A stretch of DNA of 64,000 nucleotides from positions 1,757,655-1,821,654 of the forward strand of contig NZ_CP100448.1 of the NCBI RefSeq assembly GCF_024227715.1. The letters are read 5' to 3'. This document shows positions 54,979 to 60,670 of the stretch, one piece after another (within the stretch, counting starts at the first letter, position 1; the number at the start of each line of letters is the position of its first letter). Source of the stretch: Halomarina litorea (GTDB taxonomy: Archaea; Halobacteriota; Halobacteria; Halobacteriales; Haloarculaceae). The position numbers and the translations under genes were made by a program. Below the pieces are notes generated by a model that worked only from the letters and a program-made list of their open reading frames with translations, made no database searches and was not told the DNA's origin.

Positions 54979-55461
54979 TCAGAGGAACGCGACGAGGAGC
55001 ATCGCCACGAGCATCGAGAGCGTCAGGAGCGCCTGCACCACCGTCGAGGCGAGGACGCCGACTGCGGCGTACACCGCGGCGCGACCGCTCTGCCGGGCGT
55101 CCTGATTGCGGGCGAACTCGACGACGAACACCGTCCCCGCCACGCCGACGACGAGTCCGACGGGTCCCGCGACGAACAGGAGGACGATGCCCACCGCAGC
55201 GGCGACGGCCGTCGTCAGCGTGGACGCACCGCCCACCTTCGCGGACACCGCGCCGCCGAAGTAGTCCACCGCGAGGGTGAGCAGTCCCACGAGGACGAGT
55301 ACCGCGAGGAGCACCGGTCCCGGTTCGGTGTACCCCGTCGAGTACCAGTAGAGGAGGACGCCCGCGAGCGACGAGAGCGCCCCCGGGAGGAGGGGGACCA
55401 CGGCGCCGACGACGCCGAGGACGAGCAGTCCGAGCGCAAGCCAGCCGAGTGGCTCAACCAT
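54979..55461 (-). CDS. DUF456 family membrane protein
   Basis: 160 aa, five or six membrane helices. LGVVGAVVPLLPGALSSLAG near the N-terminus and VDYFGGAVSAKVGGASTLTT followed by GVVGTV-like segments are the DUF456 signature. Function unknown. The start overlaps the end of tmcA by 8 nt, so it is probably co-translated. Confidence 0.85.
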   Translation of the reverse strand: MVEPLGWLALGLLVLGVVGAVVPLLPGALSSLAGVLLYWYSTGYTEPGPVLLAVLVLVGLLTLAVDYFGGAVSAKVGGASTLTTAVAAAVGIVLLFVAGPVGLVVGVAGTVFVVEFARNQDARQSGRAAVYAAVGVLASTVVQALLTLSMLVAMLLVAFL

Positions 55462-57712
55462 ACCGGTCCCGTTCGTCGCGGGCCGCCTTAGTGCCGTAGC
55501 CTGCGACGAGGGCGGCGAACGTCTGCCCGAGTTCGCGGCGGGCCCCGCTCTTGGAGTAGAAGTCGAGTTCGTCGGCGACCGACTCCCAGTCGTGGAACTG
55601 GAGGACGCGCCGGACGAGCAGTCGTTCCTGTCGCGGGTCGAGGTCGAACGCCGGGTCCGTGAGGGTACGGAGGGCGAGTCGGCGGAACGGGCCGGGGTGC
55701 ATGTCGAACTGGCCGGGGCCGAAGGCGGCGCTGGCGATCAGTCGCCACTCGCGGTCCGAGAGGTCCGTCACGACGGGCGAGTCGAACGCCGCGAGCGTAC
55801 CCCGGACCACGTCCGCGTCCACCTCCGAGAGGGTGTCGCCGAGTACGTCGCCTACCCGCTGGCGGAACCAGCGGGCGTGTCGGGCGGTGACGTGGTCCGG
55901 AGCGGGGGCCGGGGCCGCCGGCCGAAGCATCGCCACGCTGTGTTCTCCGCTGGTGGCGTTGCGCGTCGCCGAGAGGTGGACCGAGTGGTAGCCGTTCGCC
56001 CGCCAGAAGTCGAGCAGGCGGGGTGTCGCGCCGTAACTCGTCCCGAACCAGTCCACCTCGTCGCCGAACTCCCGGTGTATCGAATCGAGCAGTTCGGTCC
56101 CGAGTCCCGACGACTGCACGGATGGGTGGGTGGCGATGCGGACGACGCGGACCCCGAGTGGCCGACCCACGTCCGGGTCGCGCAGTTGCCCCGTCATCAG
56201 GTCGGGGAGCATGTTGCCCTGTACCCGACCCTCCCGGTAGATTCGCTCGCAGGTGTCGGCATCGAACCCGCCTTCGCGGGCGAGGAGGGCGACGCTCACG
56301 ACGTGGCCCCCGTGGACCAGACAGCGCGCCGAGAGGTTCGGGGCGTCCAGCAGTCTCGCCAAATCGTCCGGTTCGGTGCGGTAGTGCGCGAGGACCAGCA
56401 GGCCGAACAGCTCTCTGAGGAGGTGTTCGTCCGCCAGCAGGTCGTCCGGGGTTGGGCGGGCGTACTCGACGGAGTCGGGGGTGGCGTCGGCGACGAGGAG
56501 TTCCACGGCCGGACTCGCATCGAGGAGGAGCGCCCGGAACGCCCACGGTTCGACGGGGTCGGTCCCGGCGTAGCGGATTGGTTCAGCCATCGACACGTCG
56601 ACCACCTCGCAGTCGCTCTCCGCGAGGCGTTCGCGGAACCGGACCGCGAACCCGCGTCCGGCACCCTCGTAGCCGTGGACGGTCGTGGCGAACCCGACTG
56701 GGACTCGCCCGAGGAGCGAGGAGAGCAGCGAGACGGGGAGGCCAGCCGCCTCGTCCACGAGGACCACGTCCGGGTCGTCGGGAAACTCGCTGGCTTCGAG
56801 GGGCGGGACGAAGCGGACCCGGCCGCCCTCTGCGGCCCGGAGTTCGCCGTTCCCCTCGCCGACCTCGTCGCCTCGGTCGGCGAGGACGCCGAGGGCATCG
56901 AGCACCTCGCGTGCGCGGGCGAACAGTTCCCCGGCGCCGCGCCGGTCGGGTGCGGTGACGAGAACGTCCCGGCCCGCCGCGGCGAGTGATCCGGCGGCGA
57001 GGCCGGCGGCGCTCGACTTCCCGCGCCCCCGGTCGGCTTCGAGGACGACCGCGGTGCTCGGGTCGCGCAGACGCTCGAACGCCCGCAGCGCCGCAATCTG
57101 GTCGGCGGTCCGGCAGGCCTCGTAGGCGACGCGCGGGAAGGCGTGCGTCTCGGGGAGCGTCGGGGATGCCTGCGGGCGGGCGGGTGCGGGGTCGGTCAGT
57201 CCCTCGCGTTCGACGACTTCCGAATCGACGTCGACGATAGCGACCCCCCGATGGGCGCGCAGGAGCGAGACGAGTCGCTGGCGGAAGCGCCCGGAGACGT
57301 CCTCGACCGTCGCGGGCGGGGCGGCGAGCGTCTCGTCGAAGCGGTCTCTCCGACGGCTCCACTCGTCGAGGGGCGGCGCGAGGAGGACCAGCAGGCCTCC
57401 GCCGTCCACCGCGCCGACGGCCCGCCCGAGGGCGTTCGGACGACACTCCTCGTGGCCGTCGACGACGACGCACTCGCGGGTGGTGCCGAGGAGGGCGTCG
57501 GCTCGCCGGGGTTCGTGGCGTTCGACGCTCGCCGTGCCGGGGTCGCGGTGCCCCACGAGGACCGGGTCCGCGACGTCGCCAGCCTCGAAGACGTCGGGGA
57601 GGGCGTCGAGGCAGGCGTCGTGGCTCCCCGCGAGGACCAGCAGTCGGCGCTCGTTCGTCCGTCGCGCCTCCTCGCGGAGGGCGCGGACGGCGGCGTCGAC
57701 GCGTGGGTGCAT
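55454..57712 (-). CDS. tmcA: tRNA(Met) cytidine acetyltransferase TmcA
   Basis: 752 aa. An N-terminal DUF1726 domain is followed by an RNA helicase-like ATPase with Walker A LEADRGRGKSS (about 224-234) and Walker B DVVLVDEAAG. A GNAT domain follows (RIATHPSVQSSGLGTELLDS, about 515), and then the C-terminal tRNA-binding part. It acetylates N4 of C34 in elongator tRNA-Met or other RNAs in archaea. The downstream DUF456 gene overlaps. Confidence 0.95.
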   Translation of the reverse strand: MHPRVDAAVRALREEARRTNERRLLVLAGSHDACLDALPDVFEAGDVADPVLVGHRDPGTASVERHEPRRADALLGTTRECVVVDGHEECRPNALGRAVGAVDGGGLLVLLAPPLDEWSRRRDRFDETLAAPPATVEDVSGRFRQRLVSLLRAHRGVAIVDVDSEVVEREGLTDPAPARPQASPTLPETHAFPRVAYEACRTADQIAALRAFERLRDPSTAVVLEADRGRGKSSAAGLAAGSLAAAGRDVLVTAPDRRGAGELFARAREVLDALGVLADRGDEVGEGNGELRAAEGGRVRFVPPLEASEFPDDPDVVLVDEAAGLPVSLLSSLLGRVPVGFATTVHGYEGAGRGFAVRFRERLAESDCEVVDVSMAEPIRYAGTDPVEPWAFRALLLDASPAVELLVADATPDSVEYARPTPDDLLADEHLLRELFGLLVLAHYRTEPDDLARLLDAPNLSARCLVHGGHVVSVALLAREGGFDADTCERIYREGRVQGNMLPDLMTGQLRDPDVGRPLGVRVVRIATHPSVQSSGLGTELLDSIHREFGDEVDWFGTSYGATPRLLDFWRANGYHSVHLSATRNATSGEHSVAMLRPAAPAPAPDHVTARHARWFRQRVGDVLGDTLSEVDADVVRGTLAAFDSPVVTDLSDREWRLIASAAFGPGQFDMHPGPFRRLALRTLTDPAFDLDPRQERLLVRRVLQFHDWESVADELDFYSKSGARRELGQTFAALVAGYGTKAARDERDRYG

Positions 57713-57802: not shown

Positions 57803-58825
57803 ATGGCCGAGACAAACCGCGTCTGGCTGCTCGCACAGCGCCCCGACGGTCGACCCGACATGGACTGCTTCGAATTCGCCGAGCGACAGCGACCCGTCCC
57901 CGGGGACGGGGAAGTGCTGGTACGGACGCTGTACATGTCAGTCGACCCGTACATGCGCGGGCGGATGCGCGACGCCGAGTCCTACGCCGAACCGTGGACC
58001 GTCGGCGAACCGATGCAGGCGGGCGTCGTCGGCGAGATCGTCGCCTCGAACCACCACGCCTGGGAGGAGGGCGACGTCGTCAACGGGAACCTGCGGTGGG
58101 CGGACTACGCCATCGCGAAGGGCCACGAACTCGTCGGCGTGAACCCCGACCTCGCGCCCGTCTCGACGGCGCTCGGCGTCCTCGGGATGCCCGCCCGGAC
58201 CGCGTACTTCGGCTTGCTGGACGTGGGCGACCCGAAGCCGGGCGACACCGTCGTCGTCTCGGGGGCGGCGGGGGCGGTCGGCTCGGTCGTGGGGCAGATC
58301 GCCCGCCATGCCGGCTGTCGAGTCGTCGGCGTCGCGGGGAGCGAGGAGAAGATCAGCTGGCTGACCGACGAACTCGGCTTCGACGCGGCCATCAACTACA
58401 AGGACGACGACGTGCGCGCGAGGGTGCGCGAGGCGTGTCCCGACGGCGTCGACGTCTACTTCGACAACGTCGGCGGTCCCGTCACCGACGCCGTGATGGA
58501 CAACCTCTCGGTGCGCGCGCGGGTCGTCATCTGCGGGCAGATATCCCTCTACAACGCGCAGGAGCGCCCGACCGGGCCGCGGCACTTCGGGACGCTCATC
58601 CAGAAGCGCGCCCGCGTCGAGGGCATCCTCGTCCGTGACTACGAGGACCGCTACGAGGAGGCCAACGAGCGACTCGCCCGGTGGGTGAACGACGGCACGG
58701 TCCAGTACCGCGAGACGGTCACGGACGGACTGGAGCGCGCACCGGAGGCGTTCCTCGGCCTGTTCGACGGGGAGAACATCGGCAAGCAACTGGTTCAGGT
58801 CGCCGAGTACGGGGACGAGGAGTAG
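57803..58825 (+). CDS. NADP-dependent oxidoreductase (MDR, prostaglandin-reductase-like)
   Basis: 340 aa. The N-terminal quinone-oxidoreductase-like part has YMSVDPYMRGRMRDAESYAE, a signature of the MDR/leukotriene-B4-dehydrogenase type. The cofactor motif GAAGAVGSVVGQIARHAGCR is in a Rossmann fold, and VDVYFDNVGGPVTDAVMDNL follows. No Zn ligands are visible. It reduces double bonds of enones or aldehydes; physiological substrate unknown. Leaderless start at 57803, with actataacta at TATA distance. Confidence 0.92.
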   Translation: MAETNRVWLLAQRPDGRPDMDCFEFAERQRPVPGDGEVLVRTLYMSVDPYMRGRMRDAESYAEPWTVGEPMQAGVVGEIVASNHHAWEEGDVVNGNLRWADYAIAKGHELVGVNPDLAPVSTALGVLGMPARTAYFGLLDVGDPKPGDTVVVSGAAGAVGSVVGQIARHAGCRVVGVAGSEEKISWLTDELGFDAAINYKDDDVRARVREACPDGVDVYFDNVGGPVTDAVMDNLSVRARVVICGQISLYNAQERPTGPRHFGTLIQKRARVEGILVRDYEDRYEEANERLARWVNDGTVQYRETVTDGLERAPEAFLGLFDGENIGKQLVQVAEYGDEE

Positions 58826-58904
58826 GCGCAGAAATTTCGGAACGCTGAACCGTCACGATGCGGCGTGTGGCGGTGGCACACGCACAGGGACGTTCGGAAG
58901 CGCT

Positions 58905-58914
58905 TTTATGCAGG
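58905..58914 (+). promoter_or_regulatory. TATA box of the L7Ae operon
   Basis: ttttatgcag (58905-58914) is the single TATA-like element in the spacer, placing the transcript start near 58930 and a leader of about 140 nt before the ATG at 59073. Confidence 0.6.
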
Positions 58915-58929
58915 GCAGAATTATGACGG

Positions 58930-59072
58930 GGTACAACCCGCGTGGGGTTGATGATGCTCCCAGCCAGGGACTCTCGCCGACCCTCGGGTCGGCAGTGCGC
59001 GACAGGTCGCTCACGTGACCGTCGGGCACGAGGCGGAGGGAGCGCGAGCCACCACGTGGGACGCCAATAACC
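58930..59072 (+). ncRNA. Structured leader or small RNA upstream of rpl7ae
   Basis: The sequence after the promoter contains gccgacc-ctcg-ggtcggc (58976-58993), a perfect 7-bp stem with tetraloop. Another hairpin, gtgcgcga-cagg-tcgctcac (about 58996-59015), follows. A closing stem gctccc (58957-58962) to gggagc (59039-59044) encloses both. ttgatgatg (58948-58956) resembles a box C of archaeal C/D-type RNAs. Since L7Ae binds K-turns, and is known to regulate its own mRNA by such elements in some archaea, this might be an autoregulatory leader. It could also be a guide RNA, but no clear box D or ACA pair was confirmed. Confidence 0.55.
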
Positions 59073-59435
59073 ATGCCAGTATACGTTGATTTCGACGTTC
59101 CGGCCGACCTCGAAGACGACGCCATCGAGGCGCTCCAGGTCGCACGGGACACCGGCTCCGTAAAGAAAGGTACCAACGAGACGACCAAGGCCATCGAGCG
59201 AGGCAACGCCCAGCTCGTCTACATCGCCGAAGACGTCACGCCCGAGGAGGTCGTGATGCACCTCCCCGAACTCTGCGAGGAGAAGGACATCGCGTACCTC
59301 TTCGTCGAGACGCAAGACGACATCGGGCACGCCGCCGGTCTGGAAGTCGGCAGCGCCGCCGCTGCCATCGTCGACGCCGGCGAGGCCGGTGACGACGTCG
59401 AGGACATCTCGGACAAGCTCGCGGAACTCAAGTAA
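59073..59435 (+). CDS. rpl7ae: 50S ribosomal protein L7Ae (K-turn-binding protein)
   Basis: 120 aa. [20 protein letters not shown] at the start and [20 protein letters not shown] are the L7Ae core with the RNA-binding loop; [20 protein letters not shown] follows. It is a component of the large subunit, box C/D and H/ACA RNPs and archaeal RNase P. First gene of the L7Ae-S28e-L24e-Ndk operon. Confidence 0.97.
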
Positions 59436-59657
59436 ATGAGCGCAGAAGAGGAATCCGATGCGACGTCCGCCGAAGTGGTCGAAATCGTCGGCAAGACCGG
59501 TATGCACGGCGAGGCCATGCAGGTGAAGTGTCGCATCCGAGAGGGCGAGAACCAGGGCCGCATCATCGCGCGAAACGTCCTCGGGCCGGTCCGCGTCGGC
59601 GACGTCATCCAGCTGCGCGAGACCGCCCGCGAGGCCGATTCCATCGGAGGTCGCTAG
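59436..59657 (+). CDS. rps28e: 30S ribosomal protein S28e (eS28)
   Basis: 73 aa OB-fold protein. [20 protein letters not shown] followed by [20 protein letters not shown] is the conserved core. Immediately follows rpl7ae (no gap) and abuts L24e. Confidence 0.97.
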
Positions 59658-60212
59658 ATGCCCCGGACACGCACCTGCGACTTCAGCGGCGACGACATCG
59701 AGCCCGGCACGGGCATCATGTTCATCCGCAACGACGGCACCGTCCTCCACTTCAAGAACTCGAAGGCGGAGAAGAACTACTTCATGGGCCGCGAGGCTCG
59801 TGAACTCGAGTGGACCGAGGCCGGCCGCCGCAACAAGGGCCAGACCGTCGGTTCGCAAGACGAAGTCGAGGAGGTCGCCGAGGAGGGGTCGACCGACATG
59901 GACGAACCCGAACCGACCTCGGACGTCGCCACGCCCGACGAGGAGACGGCGACCGGCGACGAGGACACGCAGGCCGACGTCGGCGACTCCGCGACGCCCG
60001 ACGCCCAGAGCGTCTCCGAGACAAAGCCGGAGGGGACCACCGGCGAGGAGACGCCTGGCGCGACGGACGCGACCGAGGGCGTCGAGGCCGAGACCCCCGA
60101 CGAGGAGGCTCGCGGTGACGAGGACGAGGAACCCGTCGAGGACACGGACGGGAACACGCCAGACCTCGAATCCGCGGAGGACGAAGTCGACGACGAGGAG
60201 GACGAGGAATGA
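59658..60212 (+). CDS. rpl24e: 50S ribosomal protein L24e (eL24) with a very long acidic C-terminal tail
   Basis: 184 aa versus about 60-65 in most archaea. The core (about 1-62) is normal: [20 protein letters not shown] (first half of the zinc ribbon), then [19 protein letters not shown]. From about residue 63 a tail of 120 residues is dominated by Glu, Asp, Thr, Gly and Pro ([34 protein letters not shown]) without any fold signature. Only a single Cys is seen, so the C4 zinc finger of other L24e proteins is incomplete. ndk starts inside its last codon. Confidence 0.93.
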
Positions 60213-60670
60213 GCGATCACGAGCGAACCTTCGTGATGGTCAAGCCCGACGGCGTCCAGCGCGGACTCATCGGCGACATCGTCGGTCGCTTCGAGGACCG
60301 CGGTCTGAAGCTCGTCGGCGCGAAGTTCATGCAGATCAGTCAGGACCTCGCCGAGGAGCACTACGGCGAGCACGCCGACAAGCCGTTCTTCGAGGACCTC
60401 ACGGACTTCATCACCAGCGGTCCGGTGATGGCGATGGTCTGGGAGGGTCAGGACGCGGTGGCGCAGGTCCGCACCATGATGGGCGAGACCGACCCCGCAG
60501 AGAGCGCGCCCGGCACCGTCCGCGGCGACTTCGGTCTCGACCTCGGCCGGAACGTCATCCACGGTTCGGACACCGAGGAGGGCTCCGCCGAGCGAGAGAT
60601 CGACCTGTTCTTCGACGAGTCGGAACTCGTCGACTACGACCGCGCGGACGAGCAGTGGCTCTACGAGTAA
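60209..60670 (+). CDS. ndk: Nucleoside diphosphate kinase
   Basis: 153 aa. [20 protein letters not shown] at the start, catalytic His in [20 protein letters not shown]. Equilibrates NTP pools. The ATGA overlap with L24e is typical of this archaeal operon. Confidence 0.97.

Follow-up and report, generated by a model that had tools for sequence, protein, structure and literature searches.

Very probably, the leader ahead of the L7Ae gene (rpl7ae) in Halomarina litorea is an autoregulatory element at the 5′ end of the operon mRNA, through which bound L7Ae represses translation. From the sequence and its comparative analysis we put the probability of this reading at about 85%. The leader lies in the window, which is the whole stretch of 64,000 nucleotides analysed here, and its parts are listed below. 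The original prediction had proposed kink-turn (k-turn) autoregulation of L7Ae as one of two possibilities, and the comparative evidence, namely a k-turn core, covariation and the position of the leader, argues strongly for it.

58904 to 58909, + strand: TATA-like promoter element TTTTAT, from the sequence and its constant spacing to the leader in relatives
58932 to 59072, + strand: 5′ leader of the L7Ae operon mRNA; the conserved block starts here in relatives, the transcript start being predicted
58937 to 58947, + strand: P1 5′ strand CCCGCGUGGGG, outer helix and putative C-helix of the k-turn; among 80 relatives, 9 of 11 P1 pairs vary on both sides
58948 to 58955, + strand: putative k-turn bulged strand UUGAUGAU; -1b U, bulge (U)GAU, 1b G58953, 2b A58954, 3b U58955
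58956 to 58965, + strand: P2 5′ strand GCUCCC A GCC, putative NC-helix; compensatory changes
58967 to 58971, + strand: conserved RGG(A/G) motif, GGGAC in the window, just 3′ of the P2 5′ strand; present in 79 of 80 leaders
58976 to 59029, + strand: variable apical region with hairpins 58976–58993 and 58995–59029; dispensable in other families
59032 to 59043, + strand: P2 3′ strand GGC GGA GGGAGC; compensatory changes
59044 to 59048, + strand: putative k-turn non-bulged strand GCGA-G; 2n G59046, 1n A59047, -1n G59048
59049 to 59060, + strand: P1 3′ strand, with A59051 bulged; in most relatives the Shine-Dalgarno site overlaps or adjoins it
59073 to 59435, + strand: L7Ae (eL8), predicted regulator and first target; NCBIfam TIGR03677 (179.9 bits) and PDB L7Ae relatives
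59436 to 60670, + strand: S28e, L24e and nucleoside-diphosphate kinase (Ndk), downstream operon genes

Promoter, operon and neighbouring genes

The TATA box noted in the original prediction was recovered as the TATA-like TTTTAT upstream of the leader. In all 77 leaders where such a box was detected, it stood 27–29 nt before the first conserved bases (TACA), and this constant spacing places the predicted transcript start of the window at about 58930–58932. The leader is about 141 nt long and ends directly before the L7Ae start codon at 59073. The encoded protein is a clear member of the L7Ae family by its sequence matches, and the operon continues in the order L7Ae–S28e–L24e–Ndk. L24e (59658–60212) has 184 amino acids, composed of a normal domain of about 53 amino acids and a long, very acidic low-complexity tail.

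Upstream of the leader and on the opposite strand, the window encodes the RNA cytidine acetyltransferase TmcA (55454–57712, − strand; Pfam NAT10/TmcA domains), with a zinc-type dehydrogenase (57803–58825) between TmcA and the L7Ae leader. HVO_2736 is the ac4C enzyme of Haloferax volcanii (PMC2584109), and the numbering HVO_2737 (L7Ae) and HVO_2736 suggests that the genes of L7Ae and the ac4C enzyme are adjacent in that species too.

Fold of the leader

The minimum free energy predicted for the leader was −82.5 kcal/mol, compared with −60.1 ± 3.8 kcal/mol in shuffled sequences (z −6.0; none of 200 shuffles as low). In the predicted architecture a long outer helix, P1, is followed inwards by an asymmetric loop (UUGAUGAU/GCGA) and then by an inner helix, P2. 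The closed domain of about 140 nt described from gctccc and gggagc corresponds to P2, in which 58956–58961 pairs with 59038–59043, and the ugaugaug element was located at 58949–58956. The outer helix P1 (58937–58947 with 59049–59060) had been overlooked, and it encloses the loop that bears the ugaugaug element. The distant strands that P1 brings together lie about 90 nt apart in the window, with a large variable insert between them.

The two hairpins predicted inside the domain are present in the window, and neither is conserved in relatives; they are replaced or lost in other families, where the leader length ranges from 86 to 196 nt, and the apical region is missing altogether from leaders of about 95 nt (e.g. 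L023, L026 and L030). Leaders in which P2 and the apical hairpins are wholly rewritten still retain the RGG(A/G) motif. We also considered a hairpin UCCY...RGGA competing with P2. Many leaders can accommodate such a hairpin, in which the Y and R positions change together between two groups (CCC/GGG and CCU/AGG); however, RGG(A/G) persists in leaders from which the UCC is gone (L080 and L094), and a fold switch was not established.

Covariation of P1 and P2

The comparative set comprised 80 leaders spread over the order, in an alignment fitted to the covariance model described below. Paired cells made up 97.4% of P1 and P2, against 33–60% in controls with slid partners, and 17 of the 20 pairs were changed on both sides, which none of 500 shuffles reached. 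Since the fit to the model makes this alignment a less clean test, we also used the unfitted seed alignment, which gave 96.5% paired cells and 10 pairs changed on both sides, again matched by none of 500 shuffles. RNAalifold, to which the helices were not supplied, recovered both P1 and P2 and added a pair between -1b and -1n, which was U-G in 72 leaders and U-A in seven; in L090 the bases at these positions are C-G. The top couplings between alignment columns were mostly P1 and P2 pairs, and when the 80 leaders were folded singly to minimum energy, P1 was largely recovered in 76 and P2 in 67. The original prediction had named a lack of stem conservation in relatives as one ground for refuting it; across haloarchaea they are conserved with compensatory changes, so the objection of unconserved stems falls away.

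The k-turn loop

Through the search for G-A and A-G pairs that had been suggested, we found an almost invariant core in the loop. Position 1b is G, 2b is A and 1n is A in all 80 leaders; position 2n is G in 73 and A in seven; and the L3 base directly before the GA core is U in all 80. At the level of sequence the loop thus has the tandem sheared G-A/A-G core between two helices that defines a k-turn. Of the 80 leaders, 54 have UUGAUGAU as the bulged strand; variants include UCAUGAC, UUGUGAA and CGGUGAU. The non-bulged strand is mostly GCGA, with variants CUGA, GUGA, GAGA and GCAA. GCAA replaces GCGA in seven leaders (L076, L082, L085, L086, L093, L095 and L098), giving an A-A pair at 2b-2n. 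An A-A pair at this position of a k-turn is a rare natural variant.

The bulge of the window would be GAU if U58949 pairs with G59048, and UGAU if U58948 does. Exact three-nucleotide bulges occur in some other families (CAU, UGU and GGU), and one leader, L111, reads as a fully standard k-turn (U-GGU-GA-G/C-GA-G). In the window and most relatives the bulged strand is longer by one U and the opposite strand by one base (G59044 in the window). With extra bases on both strands, the loop of the window is read as a variant geometry departing from the textbook k-turn with a three-nucleotide bulge, and this departure counts against L7Ae autoregulation.

Shine-Dalgarno site and proposed feedback

A sequence resembling a Shine-Dalgarno (SD) site was found at or near the 3′ end of P1 in 72 of 80 relatives, and in most of them it overlaps or directly follows the P1 3′ strand. 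In the predicted folds the SD positions were on average 39% unpaired and the start codon was free. The leader of the window has no recognisable SD, which also speaks against autoregulation by L7Ae. A recognisable SD beside P1 (59053–59072 in the window) is likewise absent in the congeners L007 and L008 and in a neighbouring genus (L009 and L010), whereas almost every other leader retains one.

Considering structure, position and precedent, we infer that feedback by L7Ae is the most economical reading. When L7Ae is in excess over its sites on rRNA, RNase P and guide RNAs, free L7Ae would bind the G-A/A-G core of the loop; its binding would lock the kinked fold together with P1, and the locked P1 would hinder access of the ribosome to the start of L7Ae's own mRNA. 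Synthesis of L7Ae would then drop, perhaps together with that of S28e, L24e and Ndk.

Distribution among haloarchaea

By DNA similarity the leader was detected in 33 of 59 relatives, with conserved blocks TACARCCYGCGYGGGGTTGATGATGCTCCYAGCC, where the transcript is predicted to start, and GGGGGAGC-GCGA-GCCCACGCGC, close to the start codon. We then used 30 leaders, those of the window and its relatives, to build a covariance model, which matched 133 of 146 haloarchaeal genomes and 120 of the 122 of good quality. There was one copy per genome, the sole second match (in G164) lying on another contig of a fragmented genome, and every copy with a downstream open reading frame that was read stands directly upstream of L7Ae. 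Outside the order the model gave a single weak match (G213), away from L7Ae and in apparent coding sequence.

The two good genomes that the model did not match (G042 and G044, leaders L128 and L126) have a compact standard k-turn hairpin in the same place. Such a hairpin stands beside the SD in two deep haloarchaeal families (L123 and L126–L129); that of L127 (CGU-AAU-GA-CGCGC-GAGA-GCGCG-GA-ACG-AGGUG) reads as a textbook k-turn stem-loop adjoining the SD site. A GAUGA-like strand near the SD was seen in most other Halobacteriota leaders that we read. No recognisable k-turn was found within 200 nt before L7Ae in L125, from a small-genome family of the same order (f2, about 1 Mb). In Rfam no family matched the leader at the gathering score, and at high E-value there were chance matches only.

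Alternative explanations

The operon could be regulated by another protein ligand, such as S28e or L24e, or the leader could serve as a thermosensor or salt sensor. Even with no protein bound, the helices are predicted to be very stable, in contrast to the leader of Archaeoglobus fulgidus; this point counts against autoregulation by L7Ae and agrees with these alternatives, as may the RGG(A/G) motif, which is conserved and lies outside the k-turn. However, the invariant nucleotides are precisely those of an L7Ae-binding k-turn core, and the motif is tied to L7Ae across archaea (PMC5539422, PMC6298567), so we consider another ligand or a sensor in place of L7Ae unlikely.

The other possibility raised by the original prediction, a co-located H/ACA- or C/D-like guide RNA, here taken as a free-standing RNA cut from the mRNA ahead of its protein partner, is very improbable. 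L7Ae is a core protein of both kinds of guide ribonucleoprotein, the loop strand UGAUGA resembles box C, and a study of Haloferax mediterranei reported small RNA reads (42 and 27 nt) in the rpl7AE/HFX_2747 intergenic region (PMC5852579); being short and derived from both strands, these reads do not decide the question. The check for rRNA complementarity proposed with the idea gave at most 9 contiguous base pairs against the organism's own 16S and 23S rRNA, the same as in shuffles. CUGA, the box D consensus, stands opposite the loop strand in only six of 80 relatives, and the stretch upstream of this "box D", which in a box C/D RNA should be a single-stranded guide of 8–12 nt, is P2 and covaries with its partner strand. 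Below the k-turn we see no pseudouridylation pocket: in 80 relatives P1 runs on unbroken except for a single bulge. The lack of an Rfam match at the gathering score and the constant abutment of the element on the L7Ae start also speak against a guide RNA.

A regulatory short peptide, encoded by an upstream frame from AUGAUG within UUGAUGAUG at 58951, is scarcely credible and a conserved leader peptide is ruled out by frame variability: the 40-codon frame of the window does end just before L7Ae, but among the 54 leaders with GATGATG the frame stops within the leader in 33 and runs into L7Ae in 21, it is broken by the variable apical inserts, and selection acts on base pairs.

Within autoregulation by L7Ae, we might speculate that the leader, instead of being a hairpin that folds upon binding, is a prefolded, clamped k-turn in which L7Ae merely re-angles a stable stem relative to the ribosome-binding site, while the apical domain and RGG(A/G) supply a second input. 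Such a two-input translational switch, of a kind not seen in other archaea, is a tentative idea to which we give a rather low probability.

Comparison with known systems

In Sulfolobus, L7Ae acts as a repressor via the leader of its own mRNA (Daume 2017, PMC5539422). The same study observed downregulation by Sulfolobus L7Ae in an Escherichia coli reporter for leaders of other archaea, a 50-bp fragment from H. volcanii among them, and the alignment showed H. volcanii with a distal, further-upstream Kt-b strand. The complex of L7Ae with the A. fulgidus leader has been solved, and that leader is unstructured until L7Ae binds (Huang 2019, PMC6298567). The haloarchaeal leader resembles these k-turn leaders (Sulfolobus acidocaldarius, A. 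fulgidus and others) in gene, position and presumed ligand, in the GAU-GA bulged strand opposite GA, and, for most relatives of the window, in an SD beside the motif. The known leaders are short weak hairpins, whereas the haloarchaeal form joins distant strands through a GC-rich outer helix of 11 pairs, with a large variable insert, extra loop nucleotides and a predicted prefolded state. In the expanded haloarchaeal leaders that we read, more than 50 nt separate the distal GAUGA strand from the start codon; therefore, we infer from these other haloarchaeal leaders that the 50-bp fragment of H. volcanii would lack the distal strand.

A survey of structured leaders described those of S15 in Halobacteria, eL15 in Euryarchaeota and L4 in Archaeoglobi (Eckert and Weinberg 2020, PMC7247131). 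They are likewise covariation-supported leaders of archaeal ribosomal-protein operons, but differ from the L7Ae leader in gene and structure, and the L7Ae leader is absent from the list in that survey. Archaeal box C/D and H/ACA guide RNAs share the L7Ae-binding type of k-turn, formed from UGAUGA-like and CUGA-like strands; the L7Ae leader differs by having neither guide nor pocket and by its cis position in the mRNA. Autoregulation through an L7Ae leader is thus already known from other archaea, and of the large haloarchaeal form only a partial map existed. New here are the order-wide architecture supported by covariation, the assignment of the distal strand, and a family absent from both Rfam and the 2020 survey.

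Few cis-regulatory RNAs are established in archaea, and the L7Ae leader occurs once per genome in nearly all haloarchaea examined. The strand that truly pairs in haloarchaea would be the distal UUGAUGA near the 5′ end of the transcript, and not one lying 50 bp or less from the start codon. For this reason the reporter experiment of 2017 on the Haloferax leader deserves repeating with the full leader.
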